DNA of 64,000 bases from an uncultured Solirubrobacteraceae bacterium (GTDB lineage Bacteria; Actinomycetota; Thermoleophilia; Solirubrobacterales; Solirubrobacteraceae): positions 1 to 64,000 of the forward strand of contig CADCVQ010000017.1 in the NCBI GenBank assembly GCA_902806175.1, in the 5' to 3' direction. Shown piece after piece: positions 8,679-45,344 of this stretch. A model generated the notes under the pieces. It saw only the letters and a program-made list of their open reading frames with translations. It was not told the origin of the DNA and ran no database searches. Position numbers and translations under genes: made by a program. Positions within the stretch are counted from its first letter, which is position 1, and every line of letters begins with the position of its first letter.

Positions 8679-10199
8679 TCAGCGGTACAGCAGCAGCTCG
8701 GAGATCCGCACGACCTGCTCGTCGGGCGGCAGCTTCGTGATCCAGACGAGGTAGCGGCGGTACGGGTTGGAGGCGGTGTCGAGGTCGATCGCCTCGCTGG
8801 TGCCGATCGGCACCGCCGGGGAGCTGACGAGCGTCCAGCCGCGCGGCGGCTCGGTCGACGGCAGCCCGTTGGGCGCCACCCAGATCGACGCCTCGAAGCC
8901 GGGCGTCGGCGTGCGGATCGTCAACTTCCTGGCGGCCACGCCCGGCGACGCGTCGATCACGACGCCGACGCCCTCCTTGCTCAGCGTGCCGGCGTCGTAG
9001 CGCTCGGTCGCCCACGTCGTCGACGAGACGCCGTCGACGAGCGCGCTCGTCTGCTCGGGGTGCTCGCCGTCGCCGCCGAGCGGATCGAAGTCCGACACGG
9101 CGCGCTGGCGCAGCCCCACCGACTTCAGGCCCTGCGGCGTCGGCGCGACCTGCTCGCGCTGGCCTGTGCCGCGCTCGGTCTGCTGCGCGGCGACGTACGC
9201 CAGCGCGCCCGCGCCCGCGACGATGAGCGCGAGCAGCCCGAGCAGCGCCTTCGTCGAGCTGCGCGCGCGCAGCGGCACGCGCCGCCGGGTCGTCTCGGGC
9301 AGGCTGCGCAGCACCGTCGTCGCCTCGCCCGTCACCTGGCCGGTGCGCGCGGTCTCGATCGCGAGCACCTCCTCGAGGTCGGCCATCATCGCGTGCGCGT
9401 TCGGATAGCGGCGGTCGAGCTCCTTGTCGGTCGCGCGGTCGAGCACCGCGGCGAGCGCGGCGGAGACCTCGGGGCGGCGGATCTGCACGTCGGGAAGCTG
9501 CTCGCGAACGTGCTTCATCGCGACGGCGATCTGGTTCTCGCCCTTGAAGGGCACGTCGCCGGTGAGCATCTCGAAGAGGACGATCCCCAGCGAGTACAGG
9601 TCTGACTGGCCCGACACGGCGTGGCCGAGCGCCTGCTCGGGCGAGACGTAGTCCGTCGTGCCGAGCACGCGGCCGTCGGCGGTCAGCCCCTCCTGGTGCA
9701 ACGTCCGGGCGATCCCGAAGTCGGTGACCTTCGCCGCGCCCTCCTCGTCGATGAGCACGTTCTGGGGCTTGACGTCGCGATGCACGATCTGGCGCTCGTG
9801 GGCGGCGCCGAGCGCGCGCGCGATCTCGATCGAGTAGGCGAGCGACTCGGCGATCGGCAGGCGGCCGTTGCGCCGGATGCGCTGCTTGAGCGTCTCGCCC
9901 TCGACGTACTCGAAGACGATGTACGGCGTCGCGTAGCCGTCGCCGTCCTCGCTCTCCTCGCCCGCGTCGATGACGCCGACGACGTGCGGGTGGTTGAGCT
10001 GGGCGACGGCCCGCGCTTCGCGGCGAAAGCGCTCGAGCTGGTCGGAGTCGCCGGCGATCTCGCGATGCATGAGCTTGATCGCGACCTGGCGCTCGAGGAC
10101 GGTGTCGAACGCCCGGTAGACCGTCGACATGCCGCCGGTCCCGACCTGTGCGTCGAGGCGGTAGCGGTTGGAGAGCAGCGTGCCGACGGGCGAGGGCAT
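8679..10199 (-). CDS. Ser/Thr protein kinase with MviN-like discoidin-type outer domain
   Basis: A 506-residue protein. Residues 10-285 are a complete kinase domain (GTGGMSTVY loop, K42, HRDVKPQN with D142, DFGIA), so activity is expected. A membrane helix lies at about 318-340. The outside part, about 370-506, begins VSDFDPLGGDGEHP and resembles the discoidin/F5-8C-like carbohydrate-binding domain found at the end of mycobacterial MviN, where it follows a pseudokinase. It converges with ddl, leaving 16 nt between the stops. It may stand in for the missing PknA and bind envelope glycans, but this is inferred from domain likeness only. Confidence 0.88.
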   Translation of the reverse strand: MPSPVGTLLSNRYRLDAQVGTGGMSTVYRAFDTVLERQVAIKLMHREIAGDSDQLERFRREARAVAQLNHPHVVGVIDAGEESEDGDGYATPYIVFEYVEGETLKQRIRRNGRLPIAESLAYSIEIARALGAAHERQIVHRDVKPQNVLIDEEGAAKVTDFGIARTLHQEGLTADGRVLGTTDYVSPEQALGHAVSGQSDLYSLGIVLFEMLTGDVPFKGENQIAVAMKHVREQLPDVQIRRPEVSAALAAVLDRATDKELDRRYPNAHAMMADLEEVLAIETARTGQVTGEATTVLRSLPETTRRRVPLRARSSTKALLGLLALIVAGAGALAYVAAQQTERGTGQREQVAPTPQGLKSVGLRQRAVSDFDPLGGDGEHPEQTSALVDGVSSTTWATERYDAGTLSKEGVGVVIDASPGVAARKLTIRTPTPGFEASIWVAPNGLPSTEPPRGWTLVSSPAVPIGTSEAIDLDTASNPYRRYLVWITKLPPDEQVVRISELLLYR

Positions 10200-28676: not shown

Positions 28677-29243
28677 ATGGCCGGCCCGAATGAGGTCCTG
28701 CTCGTGCGCCACGGCGAGACCGACGACAACGCGGCCGCTCGCTTCCAGGGCCAGCGCGACACGCAGCTCAACGAGCGCGGTCGCGAGCAGTCGCGCGCAC
28801 TCGCCCGGAGCCTGCGCGACGAGGGGCTGCAGGCGCTCTACACGAGCCCGCTGCAGCGCGCCCGCGCGACGGCCCAGATCGTCGGCGACGTGCTCGGTTT
28901 GCAAGCGACGGTCGACGAGCGCCTGATGGAAGCCGACACGGGCGACTGGTCGGGCCGGCTGATCGCCGACGTGACCGCCGCCGTGCCCGACGAGTGGGAG
29001 CGCTGGCGCCGCGCCGACCCGACGTTCCGCTTTCCGGGTGGGGAGTCCGTCGCCGAGCAGGCGGCGCGCGTATCGGCGGCGCTGGCGGACGTCGCCGGCG
29101 GGCCGCTGCCGGCGCTCGTCGTCACCCACGGCGGCTCGATCCGGGCGATCGGCGCGCTCGCGCGGCCGGCGGGCGGCAGGATCGGCAACTGCGCGCTGTT
29201 TCGCCTGCCGGCGGTGAGCGCCGCGGCGAGCCGGCGGACGTGA
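28677..29243 (+). CDS. Histidine phosphatase superfamily (phosphoglycerate-mutase-like) protein
   Basis: A 188-residue cytoplasmic enzyme with the catalytic RHGE motif at residues 11-14 (LLVRHGETDDNAA), the branch residue motif TSPLQRARATA, and the second catalytic His in VVTHGGSIRAIG. The substrate cannot be told from sequence; relatives hydrolyse sugar phosphates, alpha-ribazole phosphate or nucleotides. A CAGGGGGAG SD lies 6-10 nt before the ATG at 28677. Its stop overlaps the GTG of the next gene (GTGA). Confidence 0.88.
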   Translation: MAGPNEVLLVRHGETDDNAAARFQGQRDTQLNERGREQSRALARSLRDEGLQALYTSPLQRARATAQIVGDVLGLQATVDERLMEADTGDWSGRLIADVTAAVPDEWERWRRADPTFRFPGGESVAEQAARVSAALADVAGGPLPALVVTHGGSIRAIGALARPAGGRIGNCALFRLPAVSAAASRRT

Positions 29244-34517: not shown

Positions 34518-35612
34518 TCAGGTTGTGGTCGTCGAGCGGCTCGCCCGCGCGCGCTTTGCGGTGGCGCTTCCGGCGAGCCGGTCGTAGTGCTCGAGCGCGA
34601 GACCGGAGCCGACGGCGACGCAGGTCAGCGCGGTCTCGATGACGTTGGTCGCGATCGCGGTCTCCTCTTCGACGAGCTTGGCCAAGCCGCGCAGCAGGGT
34701 GCCGCCGCCGGCGAGCAGGATGCCGTGGCGGGCGATGTCGCTGGCCAGCTCGGGCGGGGTCTGCTCGAGCGTTTCGGTGATCGCCAGGAGGATCTCGCGC
34801 AGCGGCGCGCGCAGCGCCTCGCGAACCTCTTCGCTGTGCAGCTGAACCTCGCTCGGCAGGCCGCTGATGATGTGGCGCCCGCGTACGGCGAAGGTCATCT
34901 CCTCGGCGAGCGGGTGGGCCGAGCCGATCGCCAGCTTGATCGCCTCGGCGGTGCGCGAGCCGATCACGAGCTGATGCGCGCCGCGCATGTAGTGGCCCAG
35001 CGCCTCGTCCATCTCATAGCCGCCGACGCGCAGCGAGCGCGACAGGACGATGCCGCCGAGCGAGATCACCGCCACCTCGCTGGTACCGCCGCCGATGTCG
35101 ACGATCATCCGCCCGACCGGCTCCTCGATCGGGACGCCCGCGCCGATCGCCGCGGCGATCGGCTCCTCGATGAGCTGCACGCGCCGCGCGCCGGCGGCAA
35201 GCGCCGCGTGCTCGACGGCTCGCTGCTCGACCTCGGTGACGCCCGACGGCGCGCAGACGATCAGCCGTGGGTGAGCCCAGCGGCGGTCGAGCACTCGCGC
35301 GATGAAGTAGCGCAGCATCTGCTCGGTGACCTCGAAGTCGGCGATCACGCCGTGGCGCAGCGGCCGCACCGCCGAGATCGTCGCCGGCGTGCGCCCGATC
35401 ATCCGCTCGGCCTCGGCGCCGACGGCATGCACCTCGCCGCTCTCGGTATCCATCGCGACCACGGAGGGCTCCGCTACGACGATCCCCTCGCCGCCGACGT
35501 ACACGAGCGTGTTCGCGGTACCCAGATCGATCGCGATGTCGTTGACCCCGAGCGTCGACCCCAGCCGCCGCCGCGACGTCGCCCCCCGAGGGCGGTCTCT
35601 GCCAAAGCGCAC
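34518..35612 (-). CDS. mreB: MreB/MreB-like actin homologue
   Basis: A 364-residue cytoskeletal ATPase. The actin-fold phosphate 1 motif IAIDLGTANTLVYV, the adenosine-region motif DIGGGTSEVAVISLGGIV and the late GILLAGGGTLLRGL are all present. MreB filaments guide cell-wall synthesis in rods. Here mreC and mreD are not adjacent; the neighbours are a septum-formation gene (convergent) and an RsiG-like gene. The first 22 residues (RPRGATSRRRLG) are a basic extension relative to E. coli MreB; VNDIAIDLG could be the true start. GTG start at 35612. Confidence 0.92.
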   Translation of the reverse strand: MRFGRDRPRGATSRRRLGSTLGVNDIAIDLGTANTLVYVGGEGIVVAEPSVVAMDTESGEVHAVGAEAERMIGRTPATISAVRPLRHGVIADFEVTEQMLRYFIARVLDRRWAHPRLIVCAPSGVTEVEQRAVEHAALAAGARRVQLIEEPIAAAIGAGVPIEEPVGRMIVDIGGGTSEVAVISLGGIVLSRSLRVGGYEMDEALGHYMRGAHQLVIGSRTAEAIKLAIGSAHPLAEEMTFAVRGRHIISGLPSEVQLHSEEVREALRAPLREILLAITETLEQTPPELASDIARHGILLAGGGTLLRGLAKLVEEETAIATNVIETALTCVAVGSGLALEHYDRLAGSATAKRARASRSTTTT

Positions 35613-39188: not shown

Positions 39189-39764
39189 TCACGAGATTCC
39201 CCTCAAGCAGATCGCCGTCACCTCGACGCTCCAGTTCGTCGTGGTGCCGGAGCCCACCTCCTGAGCCACGATGCTCGCCGCATTGGAGAACGTGTCGACC
39301 TCGAGGCCGGTGAGCGCCACGTTCTCCTGCTGCGAGCTTGAGGTGTTGTTCAAGACCTGCCCCGAGGTGGCGACGACCTTCGAACCGGCGGGGCATTCCG
39401 CGAATCCAAACTTGAACGAGTCCGAGTTGCTCGCTGAGGAATCGTTCGCCTTGACGATCGAGATCGCCGGCGCGGCTGTTCCTGCCGGACCCGGTGCCCC
39501 TGCCGGACCCTGCGGACCTGCAGGACCCGGCTGTCCGGCTTGGCCACGGGGGCCGGCCGGCAGCTGACCGAGCTTGAAGTCTGCCGCGAGGAGCGAGCCG
39601 TTCCTGACCTCGCTGGACGTCACGGCGCCGCTTCTGATCTGCTTGGCGCCCACGCTGTTGGCGGGCAAGCGCGCGGCGGCGTACGAGGTGCCGCCCAGAG
39701 CGACGAACAGCGCGAGATATGCCACGGGCTGACGCCGAAGATGGTCAACAAGATCGCGAGGCAT
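39189..39764 (-). CDS. Secreted collagen-like protein
   Basis: A 191-residue protein with a signal-like segment (PVAYLALFVALGGTSYAA) that is characteristic of a large paralogous family in Thermoleophilia. A spacer with NSVGAKQIRSGAVTSSEVRNG precedes a short collagen-like Gly-X-Y run (about residues 72-95, many GPAGPQGPAG units). A C-terminal beta-type head domain follows (CPAGSKVVATSGQVL; NWSVEVTAICLRGIS). Surface or spore-coat-like structural roles are known for collagen-like bacterial proteins; the role here is unknown. AGGAGG lies 4 nt before the ATG at 39764. Operator site A lies 52 nt upstream. Confidence 0.85.
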   Translation of the reverse strand: MPRDLVDHLRRQPVAYLALFVALGGTSYAAARLPANSVGAKQIRSGAVTSSEVRNGSLLAADFKLGQLPAGPRGQAGQPGPAGPQGPAGAPGPAGTAAPAISIVKANDSSASNSDSFKFGFAECPAGSKVVATSGQVLNNTSSSQQENVALTGLEVDTFSNAASIVAQEVGSGTTTNWSVEVTAICLRGIS

Positions 39765-39816
39765 CATTCCTCCTAGGGTCATTTGCGGGCGATTGTTGCC
39801 GGTGAAACCGAGTCTC

Positions 39817-39849
39817 CGCATCGGGGAGCACCCCGAGATGGCACCCTGA
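39817..39849 (-). promoter_or_regulatory. 33-bp tandem-repeat operator, site A
   Basis: Read toward the collagen-like gene it is TCAGGGTGC-CATCT-CGGGGTGC-TCCCCGATGCG: two octamers 13 bp apart followed by a GC-rich tail. It is one of five near-identical copies between 39.8 and 43.7 kb, all in the same orientation relative to the gene they precede. It ends 52 nt before the start codon. Confidence 0.8.
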
Positions 39850-40168
39850 GGTTGGCGGCGCTTCGGGTCGCCGCGCGCGCGTCAAGCGGGTGACCGGTCA
39901 CCATCCGGCCGCACGGATCGCGGCCACGCTCGGGACGCGAACGCGGCGCAACGGTCGGCGCCGGCGCTCACAGGAGGGGGGCACACGCCAAACCACGACA
40001 AGCCGGCAGCTGGGTCGTCAAAGCCGCGGACGGCACGAAGATCGTGGTCCTTTCGACAGTGGGGATGTGCCGCTCAGGCGCGTGCTCCGACGATGCGCGA
40101 TCGGCGGCGTCGAGCGCTTCCCGGCAATTTCACTGGAAGGCGTTGCTTTGCGCGCGGGCGCGCAGCGC
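39850..40168. other. Intergenic stretch without a supported gene
   Basis: It lies between operator site A and the end of the lipoprotein gene. Short open frames exist (for example from 40044 on the plus strand), but they run antisense into the lipoprotein gene and show no family features. No repeat or RNA structure was recognised. Confidence 0.4.
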
Positions 40169-40831
40169 TCAACGCGTCGCGCGGAAGTCGATCCTCTTGG
40201 CCATCTCCAGAATCGTCTTGCCGTTCATGTCGCCCACGGTGTCGCCGGCGGCGATTGTCGCGACGATGTTCCGCGCGCGCCAGACGTACTGATAGAGCGC
40301 GTACGGCCCGAGCGGCAGCTTGATCCCGGCTGCCGCTTGGTCGCCGAGGCCGGATACGCGGACCTTCTGCGGCGGCTCCTCGGCGAACCCGCCGGTAAGG
40401 CTGTAGTTGTCGATCAACAGCTTCCTGACCGCCGGCAGCGCCTTGGATGCCGCGCGGCGGGTGTCATACAGCAATGCAAGCGATCCCGGGCTGTTGCTGT
40501 TCTCTCCATCCTTCTTGCGGTAGGCGACAGAGGAGAATCGCTTCAAACCGGGGGCCACGACCCGCTCAAAAGACGATCGCTCGTCTCTGGTCTGCGCAGC
40601 TTCGACGAGCTCTTGCGGGGATCCCGCAGACCGGCGTCGCCGCTCGTAGCCCGAAGGCAGATCAGAGGCCTTCAGGATGAAGCGATCGAGGTCATCGGCG
40701 GTGAAGTTCTGACCGAGTGCAGCGGCGGTGCCGGGCGCACCGTCCTCTTCACCTCCCTCGCCGCACCCCGTTGCGAAAAGCGCGAGGCAGAGCAGGCCCA
40801 TCGTCACAGATCGCGGCGGTCTCATCGGCAT
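40169..40831 (-). CDS. Secreted lipoprotein of unknown function
   Basis: About 220 residues with a lipoprotein signal peptide ending in the lipobox-like LFATGC near residue 22. The mature part is hydrophilic, with DLDRFILKASDLPSGY, SLALLYDTRRAASKALPAV and YVWRARNIVATIAAGDTVG, a pattern seen in actinobacterial substrate-binding-like lipoproteins of unknown role. The ATG at 40831 has a GAGG element about 8 nt upstream; ATGs at 40825, 40843 and 40912 are alternatives. It follows the secreted gene at 40936 by 104 nt and probably shares its operator-controlled transcript. Confidence 0.75.
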   Translation of the reverse strand: MPMRPPRSVTMGLLCLALFATGCGEGGEEDGAPGTAAALGQNFTADDLDRFILKASDLPSGYERRRRSAGSPQELVEAAQTRDERSSFERVVAPGLKRFSSVAYRKKDGENSNSPGSLALLYDTRRAASKALPAVRKLLIDNYSLTGGFAEEPPQKVRVSGLGDQAAAGIKLPLGPYALYQYVWRARNIVATIAAGDTVGDMNGKTILEMAKRIDFRATR

Positions 40832-40935
40832 GTGCAGCCTCATCGGGCGAGAACCCGGACGGTGGAAGGCCAACAGCATGCCGGCAACGAGCGTGCCGCG
40901 CCGTGATCTCATCGGTCGGCCTCCGCGCAGATGAC

Positions 40936-41382
40936 TCAGCTCCTGGGCGCCAGTACGCGCAGGGTGGTCCGCGCGCCGATGTTGCCCCCGCCGCAGCGAC
41001 CCGTGATCGAGTAGCGGCCGGGGCGCCGTGAGCGCGAAATCGTCGTCGTCTTGCGGAAGTACCCGTCCTCGTCTTGGATGGCCGCGGTGATCATCGGAAC
41101 CCCGGCGAACTCCCCGGGCCCGGAGAACGCGCGGGAGAGCAAGCTGACGGCATCGGGGCAACCGGGTACGTAGCCATCGACGATCACCGACTTCCCGGCC
41201 CTGACCGTGCGCGGCCTGACCCTGATCGACGTGCCGGGGGTGGACGCCGCGACGACCGCTTCGGGGCTCTGCACGGACCGGGGGCTCCTGTTCGCCCCAA
41301 GTGCGCTCGCTGCAGCGCTCAGGGCAATCACGCCTGTCACGGTGATGACCGTGATCGCAGGCGGTCGACGGAGACTGTCCAT
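40936..41382 (-). CDS. Small secreted beta-domain protein
   Basis: A 148-residue protein with a signal peptide (ITVITVTGVIALSAAASALG) and a mature beta-rich domain. SIRVRPRTVRAGKSVIVDGY and PGRYSITGRCGGG look like a bacterial Ig-like or macroglobulin-like fold, with two Cys (GCPDAV, GRCGG) likely paired. GGAGG lies 5-6 nt before the ATG at 41382, which decides against the upstream ATG at 41394. Operator site B lies 68 nt upstream. Confidence 0.75.
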   Translation of the reverse strand: MDSLRRPPAITVITVTGVIALSAAASALGANRSPRSVQSPEAVVAASTPGTSIRVRPRTVRAGKSVIVDGYVPGCPDAVSLLSRAFSGPGEFAGVPMITAAIQDEDGYFRKTTTISRSRRPGRYSITGRCGGGNIGARTTLRVLAPRS

Positions 41383-41450
41383 GTTGTCCTCCATTGGTAT
41401 CGGCGGGGCGGTGACCCAGCGCGTCCATCGTCACGGCCTGCGGCGCGGCT

Positions 41451-41483
41451 CGCATCGGGGAGCACCCCGAGATCGCACCCTGA
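41451..41483 (-). promoter_or_regulatory. 33-bp tandem-repeat operator, site B
   Basis: Toward the gene it reads TCAGGGTGC-GATCT-CGGGGTGC-TCCCCGATGCG. It differs from site A at one base. It lies 68 nt before the ATG of the small secreted beta protein and probably controls that gene and the lipoprotein gene behind it. Confidence 0.8.
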
Positions 41484-41522
41484 GATTTCACCGCGCAAGC
41501 TCCCCGAGAACGCCAGTTGCGC

Positions 41523-42980
41523 TCAGCACCTGGAGGTGCAGAAGTACAGCCAACCCAGCTCGCCAGAGCGCTGGACCTGCCCGATCGGGCTGAACGTCCC
41601 ACCACCGCGCCAGTGCAGGCCGGCCAACTGCCACCCGTTGTCTTGTGAGAGCGAGAAGACGGGACCGCCGCTGTCTCCGCTGTCGGAGCGGTAGTCGGCC
41701 CGGGCCTGGCAGATCATCGTCGTACCGGTGTCCCCGTCGTTGGTGTAGCTGTTGACCGTGAGGCACGTGTTCGTGACCTCGCCCAAGGTGACGCCGGTGG
41801 TCTTGCCGACCTTGATGACCAGTCTGCCGACCACCGGATAGTGCTCCTCATGTCCGATTTCGACCATCCCTCCGCGCCAGTTGGGCGAGTCGAAGTCCGC
41901 CTCGGCGAAGTACCCCAGAAAGAACTGGGGTCGCGGATTGGGGGAGGAGGTGATCGCCGCGAATGCGCTGTCGCTGTAGCGACAGCGCCTGTTGACCGGG
42001 CAGTCTCCCCCCGTGAAGTAGGCCGGATCGTCGACCTCGCGGGCTATCTCGTTGCTGTCGGTGCCGGGTCGACCCTCGAACGGTGTGTTCGATCGGGCAT
42101 GCTGAAAGAAGCGAGTGCCCTCCAGCGAGCCACGGGTGTCGGTGCAGTGGGTGTTGGTCACGATGCCCCATTTCTGGTGGCGCGGGTTCCAAGCGATGAA
42201 CCCCAGCGTGCAGCGGCCTCCCCCTGACTTGCTGATCTGAAATCCGCTCATCAGCGCCCGATGCCTGTGTTGCAGGCTCGAATCCTCCGGGGCGGGCGGC
42301 CTTCTGACGATGCGGACGGCGTCGCGCGGAATCGACAGCCGATCCAGGCGCCGGTGCAGCGCGCCCCGCAGCCGGAGATCCTCGACGCCCACGACGAGTC
42401 GGTTGGACCGATCGTCGATGTCGGTCATCGTCACCCCGGCCAGGCTCCACACGCCCGTCGTCATCCGGTCACTCCAGGTCTTCAGCTGCCCCCAGTCGTA
42501 GCGCGCCTTGAGCATCTTCGTCCGGCGCTCGGGGATGTCGAAGAGTGCCCGCAGCCGGCGCGCGACGAGCGCCAACGTCCGCGCGTTGCTGCGCGTCAGG
42601 TAGACGAAGAGCGTGTCGGCCTTCTCGTCGACGAACAGCCCCCCGAAGCTCGGGATGGCGGCGGCGAGCTGCGCAAGCTGATCGTCAAACGTCGGCTGCG
42701 CGCCCGTCTGCGGGATGGACTTCGGCGTCAGGCTGCCCGGCGCCGGCGGCGCTACCTCGACGCCTTCTTCTCTGCCGACGGTCAGATCGACGGAAATCCC
42801 GAGCGGCAGCCCCGGCGCCCGCACCACGAGCTCGTCCTGCGCCTGCGCGGCGCCAGGCACCGCCGCGACCACGAGAAGAGCGACGGCTGCCGCCACCCAC
42901 CCCGATGCACGGGGGCGGCGCCCTGCAGCGGGCGCGACCGACGACCTGAGGTGTGCGAACGACACGACCTTGAAGAACAT
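41523..42980 (-). CDS. Secreted trypsin-like (S1/chymotrypsin fold) serine protease
   Basis: A 485-residue protein with a signal peptide (about residues 27-48, WVAAAVALLVVAAVPGAAQA), a pro-like region of about 200 residues (reminiscent of alpha-lytic protease prodomains, FDDQLAQLAAAIPSFGGLFV) and a protease domain. The triad is visible as H278 in VTNTHC, D337 in RYSDSAFA and S437 in GDSGGPV. Four or more Cys pairs, including CTLGF, NTHC and the terminal FCTSRC, suit an extracellular enzyme. An AAAGG element is about 8 nt before the ATG. Operator site C lies 92 nt upstream. Confidence 0.9.
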   Translation of the reverse strand: MFFKVVSFAHLRSSVAPAAGRRPRASGWVAAAVALLVVAAVPGAAQAQDELVVRAPGLPLGISVDLTVGREEGVEVAPPAPGSLTPKSIPQTGAQPTFDDQLAQLAAAIPSFGGLFVDEKADTLFVYLTRSNARTLALVARRLRALFDIPERRTKMLKARYDWGQLKTWSDRMTTGVWSLAGVTMTDIDDRSNRLVVGVEDLRLRGALHRRLDRLSIPRDAVRIVRRPPAPEDSSLQHRHRALMSGFQISKSGGGRCTLGFIAWNPRHQKWGIVTNTHCTDTRGSLEGTRFFQHARSNTPFEGRPGTDSNEIAREVDDPAYFTGGDCPVNRRCRYSDSAFAAITSSPNPRPQFFLGYFAEADFDSPNWRGGMVEIGHEEHYPVVGRLVIKVGKTTGVTLGEVTNTCLTVNSYTNDGDTGTTMICQARADYRSDSGDSGGPVFSLSQDNGWQLAGLHWRGGGTFSPIGQVQRSGELGWLYFCTSRC

Positions 42981-43072
42981 CCCGATGCCTTTCTGCGCGT
43001 GATGGGGGCTCGCCCACAGAAAAGGGGCGGTTCACATGAACTCGCGCAAGCCTGCCGCGGCAGCGGCCCGTT

Positions 43073-43105
43073 CGCATCGGGGTGCACCCTGAGCTGACAC
43101 CCTGA
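43073..43105 (-). promoter_or_regulatory. 33-bp tandem-repeat operator, site C
   Basis: Toward the protease gene it reads TCAGGGTGT-CAGCT-CAGGGTGC-ACCCCGATGCG, followed by AA. It is the same length and orientation as sites A and B, with the second octamer fully conserved. Confidence 0.78.
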
Positions 43106-43212
43106 ACTTCAGTCCCGGTCGCCCCTCGCATGGCCGCCGACCTCCGTCGCCCTACGCGCGCATCAGGGGCACTCGGATCCAGCACCTGCCTGGGACTCGC
43201 ACGCTCGCCGCG

Positions 43213-43410
43213 CTAATCGCCGTCGGCGAGCGGCCGCGCCGCTGGATGAGGCAGCGCCATGGGCGCTTCGGTCAGCGCCTGCAGCGCCGCTGCGAGCTCC
43301 ATCCAGCCCTGAAACGTCCGGCGCTGGCCGTGCTCGGGCGCGAGTGAGCCCTTGATCGGCTCGCTGTCCGGCTCGACCTCGAGTGAGAGGCGCAGCATCT
43401 TCCCCGCCAT
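43213..43410 (-). CDS. Small conserved actinobacterial protein
   Basis: A 65-residue protein (MAGKMLRLSLEVEPDSEPIK ... QGWMELAAALQALTEAP). The pattern of a short acidic beta strand pair, then a G-W-x-E-L-x-x-A-L helix, resembles a family of about 60-80 residue actinobacterial proteins of unknown function that I recall but cannot name. AAGGG lies about 9 nt before the ATG. Operator site D begins 31 nt upstream, which supports this being a real gene despite its size. Confidence 0.6.
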   Translation of the reverse strand: MAGKMLRLSLEVEPDSEPIKGSLAPEHGQRRTFQGWMELAAALQALTEAPMALPHPAARPLADGD

Positions 43411-43441
43411 GGACGGGACCCTTGCAGCCGGGCGCCGTCTT

Positions 43442-43474
43442 CGCATCATGGAGCACCCTGAGATCGGACCCTGA
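43442..43474 (-). promoter_or_regulatory. 33-bp tandem-repeat operator, site D
   Basis: Toward the small gene it reads TCAGGGTCC-GATCT-CAGGGTGC-TCCATGATGCG, followed by AAG. The second octamer matches the consensus exactly and the first has one change. It lies 31 nt before the start codon, the closest of the five sites. Confidence 0.75.
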
Positions 43475-43626
43475 ACTTTTCGTGGTGTGATTTGCGCTCC
43501 GGCGCGGAGCCGGCCTCGGGAGGCGCTCCTTGCCCGCAGGTCGAAGCCAGTACGCCGCGCGCTTGTCAATTCCCGCGGCCGCTCGGGCGCGGAATGGCCA
43601 GCGTGACGCGAGGGACGCCGCCACCA

Positions 43627-43659
43627 ACAGGGTGCGATCTCAGGGTGCTCCCCGACCCG
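43627..43659 (+). promoter_or_regulatory. 33-bp tandem-repeat operator, site E
   Basis: On the plus strand it reads ACAGGGTGC-GATCT-CAGGGTGC-TCCCCGACCCG. It is the only copy on this strand and is followed by the plus-strand DUF3072 and CHAD genes, so its orientation relative to the downstream gene is the same as at sites A-D. The distance to the candidate starts at 43810 or 43999 is 150 or 339 nt. Confidence 0.72.
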
Positions 43660-43998
43660 ACGCGGCGACCTGCACGCCATGCTCCGGTCACGCGGCGCAG
43701 CGCCGGCGGTTGGTGTGCGGAGCGTCGAGCGCGGCAAGCCGCGTCCTCGAACCGAATCTCACACCTGCGGACAGACATCCCACACAATCAACGACGAAGG
43801 GGGAGGCTCATGCAGCGCATCTTCGGCAACGACCGACGCCGCCGGCAACAGATCGCGCCCGCAGCGCAGCCGCTTTCAGATCCGGCGCCGTTGACCGTCG
43901 ACACGATCCGCCATCCCGCTGGGCCGAGGTCAGGGGCGGATGGCCGTCCCTTGGCCTCGGAAGTTTGTCCCCTGCGCGTCGGCGGGAACCCGGAGCGC

Positions 43999-44202
43999 AT
44001 GGACCGCCCGCAAAGCAACCCCGAGAAGGACCCGAGCGACTGGACGACCGGCGACGAGCCGATGACGGGGCCGCAGGCCTCGTACCTGGAGACTCTCTGC
44101 CGCGAGGCCGGCGTGGAGTTCGATCCCGACCTCAGCAAGGCCGACGCCTCACGGCGCATCGACGAGTTGCAGCAGAAGACGGGTCGCGGCGCTGAGTCAT
44201 GA
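43999..44202 (+). CDS. DUF3072 family small protein
   Basis: A 67-residue protein with the family core DWTTGDEPMTGPQASYLETL and a following FDPDLSKADASRRIDELQ, typical of stand-alone DUF3072 proteins of 55-70 residues; function unknown. ATG 43999 gives the usual family length. The same frame is open to ATG 43810, which has a stronger GGGGGAGG ribosome site and would add a 63-residue basic extension of unclear origin. Operator site E lies further upstream. The stop overlaps the CHAD gene start (ATGA). Confidence 0.75.
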   Translation: MDRPQSNPEKDPSDWTTGDEPMTGPQASYLETLCREAGVEFDPDLSKADASRRIDELQQKTGRGAES

Positions 44203-45344
44203 GCCGCGCGAAGCAGGCGCGCGGCTTCGCCCTGGCGGCGGCCGGCGCGTCGGCGCTCTACGCGTTTAGCACCCGTCGAAGACAGGAGAAGACGGTTCAC
44301 ATGGCAGACTCACCCGCTTCACTTCAGGAGGACCCGCCCACCCGCACGCTGATCGAGGCCGCGACCACCGGCACGACAGTCGCGGACGATCCGCCGCCCG
44401 CGCCCAGGCCGCTCAGCCCCGAGGAGCGCGAGTTTCGCCTGCTGCCCGGCGAGACCGTCGCCGACGGCCTGCGCCGCGCAATCTGCGGACGACTGGCAGA
44501 CAGCTCCGCCGCGCTCGCCGGCGTCACCGACCGCGACGAGCTCGGCGAGGCCGTCCACGGCACGCGCAAGTCGATCAAGCGCGTGCGCGCCGCACTGCGC
44601 CTGTCACGCGACGCGCTCGGCGCGCCGACCTACGAGCGCGAGAACACGGCCATGCGCTCGATCGCCGGCCGCCTGGCCGGGGCGCGCGACGCACAGGTCC
44701 TGATCGAGACGTTGGACGCGCTCGAGCAGGCGTCCGGCGGCGAGCTCTCGCCGCAGGCGACCGAGCGGCTGCATGCGCGCCTGGAGGACGACCACGCGCG
44801 CGAGATCGCGGCGATGGCGGCCGACGGCGAGCTGGCCGTGGCGACGCGACAGGCACTCGAGGAGGCGCGTGCGCGCGCGGAGCACTGGAGCTTCGCGGAG
44901 GACGGCTTCGTCGCCGTCAAGCCCGGCCTGCGGCGCGTCTACAGCCGCGGGCGCAGGCAGCTGCGCGCCGCCTGCGAGCAGCCCACCGCCGAGAACCTGC
45001 ACGACACCCGCAAGCGCGTGAAGGATCTCTGGCACGCGGCAGAGCTGCTGCGCGAGGCCGACCCTAAGCGGATGAAGCGCCTCGCGCGCGACGCCCACGA
45101 GGTCGCAAGCCTGCTCGGTGACCACCACGACCTCAGCGTGCTGCGCGACTACGCCGCGGCGAACCCGCAGCTGTTCTCGGATATGGCCGCCCGCGAGACG
45201 CTACTCGACGCGCTCGACCGCGACTCCGAAACGCTGCAGAAGCGCGCGCTCAAGCACGCGCGACGGCTCTACCAGCGTCCGGCCAAGCGCTTCGTCAAGG
45301 ACGTCGCGCGCGGCTGGGACAAGCGCGTCTCGAGCGCGGGCTGA
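44199..45344 (+). CDS. CHAD-domain protein with N-terminal hydrophobic segment
   Basis: A 381-residue protein whose residues about 90-375 form a CHAD domain, a helical fold rich in conserved His, Arg and Lys: AVHGTRKSIKRVRAALRL, NLHDTRKRVKDLWHAAELL and LLGDHHDLSVL. CHAD proteins bind inorganic polyphosphate. The first 30 residues contain a helix (ARGFALAAAGASALYAF) before RRRQEK that could anchor it to the membrane; ATG 44301 would give a form without it. It overlaps the DUF3072 gene and may share the operator-E transcript. Confidence 0.85.
   Translation: MSRAKQARGFALAAAGASALYAFSTRRRQEKTVHMADSPASLQEDPPTRTLIEAATTGTTVADDPPPAPRPLSPEEREFRLLPGETVADGLRRAICGRLADSSAALAGVTDRDELGEAVHGTRKSIKRVRAALRLSRDALGAPTYERENTAMRSIAGRLAGARDAQVLIETLDALEQASGGELSPQATERLHARLEDDHAREIAAMAADGELAVATRQALEEARARAEHWSFAEDGFVAVKPGLRRVYSRGRRQLRAACEQPTAENLHDTRKRVKDLWHAAELLREADPKRMKRLARDAHEVASLLGDHHDLSVLRDYAAANPQLFSDMAARETLLDALDRDSETLQKRALKHARRLYQRPAKRFVKDVARGWDKRVSSAG

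Follow-up and report, generated by a model that had tools for sequence, protein, structure and literature searches.

A 33-bp element with three half-sites and a fixed spacing to a -10 hexamer, a probable operator of LAL-type activators, in an uncultured Solirubrobacteraceae bacterium

The MalT region of Actinoplanes sp. SE50/110 is a local and partly shared regulon in which a 6-N-6 dyad (TCATCC-N5-GGATGA) precedes 17 transcription start sites (TSSs). The 3' end of this dyad lies 34.4 +/- 1.0 nt from the TSS, and LAL/MalT-like LuxR regulators are encoded within the co-regulated region (PMC7567727). The MalT boxes of E. coli and Klebsiella, as cited there, are G-rich direct-repeat half-sites over the -35 position that are used by a LAL activator; they have the core GGGGA(T/G)GAGG and serve maltose genes (via PMC7567727). 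Among other LuxR-type systems, the PAS-LuxR protein PimM has the box CTVGGGAWWTCCCBAG, a 16-bp GGG-N4-CCC palindrome at -35 that is read by a LuxR HTH (PMC9774167). A TpdR-type promoter of Rhodococcus jostii, served by a LAL activator, features direct repeats and a 7-4-7 inverted repeat near -35 (PMC6099782), and the LuxR-HTH activator MilO acts on three direct repeats with a 13-bp period (PMC11784345). In the few papers found that name both LuxR regulators and bacteria of the order studied here, no targets of these regulators are described, to judge by titles and abstracts.

The window, i.e., the whole stretch of DNA that was analyzed (64,000 nt), comprises bases 1-64000 of contig C17; the assembly amounts to 4.12 Mb in 183 contigs. 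It contains five copies of a 33-bp element with the half-site plan TCAGGG-N7-TCRGGG-N4-CCCYGA, in which a direct half-site (D1) is followed by a second (D2) and an inverted third (D3) that together form a dyad. On the best reading, the regulon of the window is closest to the Actinoplanes MalT region, to which it adds a further half-site and a small protein as conserved companion. The 6-N-6 dyad, the local regulon and the co-encoded LALs are common to both, and the distance of ca. 35 nt from dyad end to predicted TSS would fit the Actinoplanes value. The dyad sequence and the target genes differ, and no upstream direct half-site is reported in the available part of the Actinoplanes account (PMC7567727). 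The half-sites share their G-rich, direct-repeat character with the enterobacterial MalT boxes. MalT itself was rejected as the cognate factor: its box core GGA(T/G)GA is absent, and the half-site TCRGGG points instead to another LAL specificity. We know of no small-protein companion of the E. coli or Klebsiella MalT. PAS-LuxR proteins such as PimM differ in their size (ca. 200 aa), in their antibiotic-cluster targets and in having no D1 (PMC9774167). The TpdR-type promoter differs in its 15-bp direct repeats with 13-nt spacing and in being a single catabolic promoter (PMC6099782). The period of MilO is matched by a triple element at C163:11649, but MilO is a REC-like LuxR protein, and its site has another sequence and lies 142 bp upstream of the TSS (PMC11784345). 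Precedent exists in the open literature for each part; what is new is the combined three-half-site operator, the two-block regulon of secreted proteins, and the linkage between LAL and small protein.

Elements of the window and the genes behind them

A preliminary description had proposed that five 33-bp tandem-repeat operators, with octamers 13 bp apart, are present in the window, all pointing the same way relative to the gene that they precede. All five were recovered at the positions it gave; length and octamer spacing were constant in 5/5, and each element points at the gene that it precedes. Chance matches (up to 3 mismatches) did not occur in 100 dinucleotide-preserving shuffles of the window, and no sixth site was found there in a scan with a weight matrix made from the 14 sites of this genome. 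The tandem-repeat reading was correct as to the direct octamers but incomplete, as D2 and the trailing CCCCGA also constitute a 16-bp dyad (6-4-6), with D1, 13 bp ahead of D2, as a third half-site. Along the direction of transcription, the consensus is (T/A)CAGGGTGCGATCTC(A/G)GGGTGCTCCCCGATGCG, with few changes among the five elements; both octamers are exact only in the plus-strand copy at 43627, and the remaining four copies have 1-5 differences. The CAGGGT of D1 is invariant, while three of the five window copies (elements 1, 2 and 5) have the GTT replaced. In elements 1 and 2, as in the copy at C163:14799, the dyad is perfect, with full agreement between its two half-sites.

Element 1 (39817..39849, minus strand; D1 39849-39844, D2 39836-39831, D3 39826-39821) reads TCAGGG-N7-TCGGGG-N4-CCCCGA. 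It is followed, 23 bp past D3, by the predicted -10 hexamer AACAAT (39792..39797, minus) and then by the gene of a collagen-like secreted protein (39189..39767, minus), which has the ribosome-binding site AGGAGG directly ahead of its ATG at 39767. In element 2 (41451..41483, minus), the D2/D3 dyad is TCGGGG-TGCT-CCCCGA; the predicted -10, GACGAT (41427..41432, minus), starts 22 bp past D3, as do those of elements 3, 4 and 5. Behind it lie W2, a gene for a secreted protein without a Pfam family (40936..41394, minus), and, downstream of W2, a lipoprotein gene (40169..40912, minus), which has a close paralog at C163:11883 and is related to a fragment at C163:16484-16879. Element 3 (43073..43105, minus) and its predicted -10, CAGGCT (43049..43054, minus), precede the gene of a trypsin-like secreted protease (41523..42980, minus). 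Element 4 (43442..43474, minus) is followed by the predicted -10 AAGGGT (43418..43423, minus) only 7 nt ahead of the ATG of a small 65-aa protein gene (43213..43410, minus), for which a leaderless start is predicted; its product, with the motif PIKGSL...F.GWMELA.AL, is the founder of the LAL-linked family treated below. Element 5 (43627..43659, plus; D1 43627-43632, D2 43640-43645, D3 43650-43655), with the predicted -10 CATGCT (43678..43683, plus), leads a DUF3072 protein gene (43810..44202, plus; E 1.5e-31) that is overlapped by a CHAD-domain protein gene (44199..45344, plus; E 6e-35). From predicted TSS to start codon, the distances for elements 1-5 are 17, 25, 61, 0 and 119 nt.

The earlier gene list held up in broad terms, and its DUF3072 and CHAD assignments were firm. 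The collagen match (E 1e-3, under the Pfam cut-off) and the trypsin match (E 1e-3, just under it) were weak, and the small protein and the lipoprotein matched no family. Elsewhere in the window, the translation of 34518-35612, beside polysaccharide-type genes, was judged by eye to resemble MreB/actin-like ATPases.

Genome-wide copies and the spacing to the -10 hexamer

Genome-wide statements are based on pattern searches of the assembly. The five copies that had been taken as the regulon are joined by nine more intact copies on contig C163 (45 kb), for a total of 14, and by two degenerate ones there. No comparable motif was found by these searches of the 4.12-Mb assembly outside the window block and C163, and a reversed control pattern gave 0 matches in the strict search. 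The intact copies of C163 are located at 10145 (plus), 11649/11662 (plus; the triple element, with its three repeats in register), 14799 (minus), 17557 (minus), 19929 (minus), 20078 (plus; 14-bp spacing), 27440 (minus), 27610 (plus) and 28947 (minus). All 14 intact copies lie upstream of genes, in a single orientation relative to the gene. The genes led by elements on C163 resemble those of the window in kind, encoding collagen-like, lipoprotein, trypsin-like (E 9e-34), FG-GAP (E 8e-91) and small proteins. The small protein of this block (C163:28401-28637) shares 54% identity with that of the window. The start codon downstream of C163:14799 is tentative, as its gene has an apparent frameshift, and the one taken downstream of C163:28947 is provisional. 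Decayed copies were seen at C163:9534 and 10014, the former of which retains CATGCT 22 bp downstream with no intact gene recognized behind it. A 157-aa protein made up of repeated EYDRLGSR/YDRMGSR-like units, with no match in NCBIfam, is encoded at C163:17582-18055.

A -10-like hexamer, xAnnnT, starts 22 bp past D3 in 11/14 copies and 23 bp past it in 3/14. Any other offset (50 were examined) had xAnnnT in two copies at most, and 2000 shuffles yielded a maximum of 5, whatever the offset. Mean identity among copies was 40% in the spacers and 27% in the flanks. Because the copies are otherwise so diverged there, recent duplication does not account for the hexamer, two pairs on C163 excepted (10145/27440 and 14799/19929), whose spacers are 83-94% identical; duplication does explain part of the sequence identity among copies. 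The predicted TSSs of the intact copies fall 0-119 nt ahead of the start codons used, and the distance of ca. 35 nt between the end of D3 and the predicted TSS is implied by the -10 at 22-23 bp. Since a sigma70-type -10 stands at a fixed 22-23 bp, the element occupies the -35 position, which is the geometry of a class II activator. SARP promoters carry heptamer direct repeats with an 11-bp period, the last repeat being ca. 8 bp from the -10. A SARP-regulated promoter was rejected here, as the period is 13 and as many as 22-23 bp separate the end of the element from the -10.

LAL regulators and relatives of the element in other genomes

The block in the window contains no regulator gene, as had been remarked earlier; two candidates reside in the second block. 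The genes at C163:21994-24996 (minus) and C163:29038-31899 (plus) encode LALs of 1001 and 953 aa, with AAA_16 and GerE above cut-off, a MalT-type architecture (N-terminal AAA ATPase plus C-terminal LuxR/GerE HTH, ca. 900-1000 aa in such regulators). Both are situated among the element copies of C163, and the gene of the 953-aa LAL adjoins the last copy. The two are 51% identical to each other, and the next LAL in the genome is ca. 40% identical; the genome encodes further LALs and other LuxR-HTH proteins, with dozens of GerE-domain matches. A degenerate LAL remnant (C163:11101-11468), 46-68% identical to the LAL at 29038 and located between two element-bearing genes, indicates that a third LAL was formerly present in this block. 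On contigs C115 and C1 of this genome (L063, L065), near-identical LAL genes are followed by CAGGGT...CCCGGACGATGCC right ahead of a start codon, which is probably another LAL-controlled promoter.

No other genome (146 of the family, 232 of the order) had the near-exact motif in numbers, with scattered copies at most in genomes of the family, and no further species turned up when the near-exact element was sought globally. Relatives were reached using the weight matrix and looser patterns. In G031 (another genus; single contig, 6.36 Mb), a 42-bit weight-matrix match, GTTCAGGGACCGATCTCGGGGTGCTCCCCGACGCG, lies 4 bp past a LAL gene and 35 nt ahead of a small-gene homolog, with TAGCGT at +22 and the ATG 7 nt further on; in the same neighborhood, a second dyad, with TACGGT at +22, is found upstream of a transporter gene. 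In G412 (another family), the element TCAGGGACGCGGTTCGGGGAGCTCCCCGACGCG occurs after a LAL that is 58% identical to that of G031, and its dyad is still perfect although GGGT is changed to GGGA. This element (L176, ca. 1464 downwards) precedes an ECF-type sigma factor gene, and in that species the LAL may sit above a sigma factor. A variant in G137 is placed between divergent genes for a LAL and a secreted protein. In G134, G135 and G008, variants stand ahead of genes for envelope or secreted proteins, and no LAL is close by; those at L159:9854 (G134) and L160:181 (G135), GTTCAGGGTGYGGGTTCCGGGTGTTCCCTGAGG, have CAGAGT at +22, precede a small lipoprotein gene, and are in a cell-division gene neighborhood. 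No element was found near the best LAL match within the same genus, which is in G015. Loose TCAGGG-N7-TCAGGG matches in other genomes were mostly single, with several within ORFs, and were not used. Of the class-wide matches to the dyad pattern, the many that fell within long open frames were dropped, as was G386 (L179), which has no -10 at the expected position.

A tree of 34 LAL C-terminal halves was calculated with FastTree. The C163 pair and the LALs of G031 and G412 formed one clade, with moderate support (0.82); the pairs within it had support of 0.99 and 1.0, and the tree has 3 clades of four among 46,376 quartets. G412 had been found by motif, not by LAL similarity, and its place in the clade is therefore an independent check; G031 was found both ways. 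The element is linked to this LAL clade across genera. Linkage and phylogeny point to one or both of the C163 LALs as the cognate factor.

Mode of action and the small-protein companion

The elements are probably class II activator operators of a LAL regulon in which most products are secreted. The sister LALs of C163, one or both, would bind D1-D2-D3 in place of a -35 box. Once bound, the LAL would bring sigma70 RNA polymerase to the xAnnnT -10 located 22-23 bp downstream, and ca. 14 transcription units would be switched on, mainly for secreted or surface proteins (collagen-like proteins, lipoproteins, trypsin-like proteases, FG-GAP repeats). Our inference comprises binding by the LAL, activation in preference to repression, and a signal that the LAL would sense. 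The preliminary description had placed the elements in the right class (activator site or regulator-specific promoter), and the activator is now favored, in keeping with the fixed position of the sigma70-like -10.

It is unlikely that the same geometry serves another regulator, be it a NarL/LuxR-type response regulator or a LAL encoded elsewhere. The many GerE-domain matches of the genome and the LAL-less variants of G134, G135 and G008 would suit such a protein, but element and LAL are linked on C163 and in G031, G137 and G412, and a single clade unites the LALs of C163, G031 and G412. A repressor operator, at which a LAL or other protein would cover the -35 region and block the promoter, is very unlikely. 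The site does overlap the -35 position, and the LAL-family protein SCO6993 of Streptomyces is reported as negative in the available part of its account (PMC9628970); however, no recognizable -35 box was noted apart from the element, and MalT-type activators have the same spacing (PMC7567727). Activation is thus favored over repression by the geometry. Also very unlikely is an alternative-sigma promoter of the SigB/F type, with GTTC as its -35 and GGGTGC as its -10, for which the sigma gene would perhaps be C163:5465-6241; this gene of the sigma-70 family (regions 2, 3 and 4) lies ca. 4 kb from the C163 elements. SigB/F-type promoters have a conserved GTTT-like -35 and a GGGTA(T/C)-like -10, and GTTC-N14-GGGTGC of the element resembles a SigB-type promoter. 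Yet GTT is replaced in three window copies in which the CAGGGT of D1 is kept, G412 has GGGA for GGGT with a perfect dyad, and the conserved xAnnnT at 22-23 bp would be left unexplained. A dispersed MITE- or REP-like repeat with no regulatory role is scarcely credible: there are many copies, some duplicated surroundings and two relics on C163, but the genome-wide search that had been proposed for recognizing such a repeat found intact copies solely ahead of genes, 14/14 sharing one orientation, a distance typical of promoters and a -10 at fixed spacing, their flanks are not common to the copies, and a diverged copy occupies the matching place in another genus (G031).

The family of the small protein has invariant G, F and GW residues and a predicted strand-strand-strand-helix fold (mean pLDDT 81). 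No match was found in Pfam, in NCBIfam or among PDB folds, and a Foldseek search with the predicted structure gave no match below E 0.4. Relatives are present in 38/399 genomes of the class, all within the order; there were 71 matches, two of which were spurious (fragments inside LAL genes), leaving 69 real small genes. A LAL lies within 1.5 kb of 55/71 matches (ca. 53-54/69 of the real ones), mostly 60-240 bp away. The regions upstream of 62 non-redundant relatives from other genomes were examined for repeats. GGG direct repeats had their peak at lag 13 (7 observed vs. 0.83 expected, 0/200 shuffles), a peak that is partly exploratory because several cases were first spotted by eye in closely related genomes; lag 22 was also raised (5 vs. 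0.81, 0/200 shuffles), and GGG/CCC dyads with gaps of 3, 5 and 6 were above all shuffles. A further test, free of by-eye choice and leaving out this genome and G031, considered 29 GGG/CCC dyads: xAnnnT was found at 22 bp in 10 promoters and at 23 bp in 4, with two promoters at most at any offset outside 21-24. We regard the repeats that lie within the 3' end of small genes (L079, L086) as coincidental.

By inspection, half-sites differ among LAL groups, as with the CTGGGGT-like repeats that accompany the L110, L233 and L249 clade, which suggests that operator half-sites co-diverge with LAL groups. The flanks of LALs not selected for the small gene had only a weak peak at 22-24 bp, with a second one at 12-13 bp in other Actinobacteria, and the geometry is therefore not claimed for all LALs. 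We tentatively propose a possible order-wide module, consisting of a LAL, a ca. 65-aa partner expressed from a LAL-controlled promoter (sometimes leaderless), and an operator with a fixed 13-bp repeat and a 22-bp dyad-to--10 spacing whose half-site has diverged per LAL clade. In such a module, the small protein might bind the LAL as a feedback co-regulator or anti-activator.

This order of soil Actinobacteria is rich in LAL regulators, and the element, its spacing to the -10 and the small-gene link supply a rule for predicting the genes under a given LAL. The new small-protein family is a likely LAL partner. In the species of the window, one LAL pair probably controls a two-block regulon of mainly secreted proteins.
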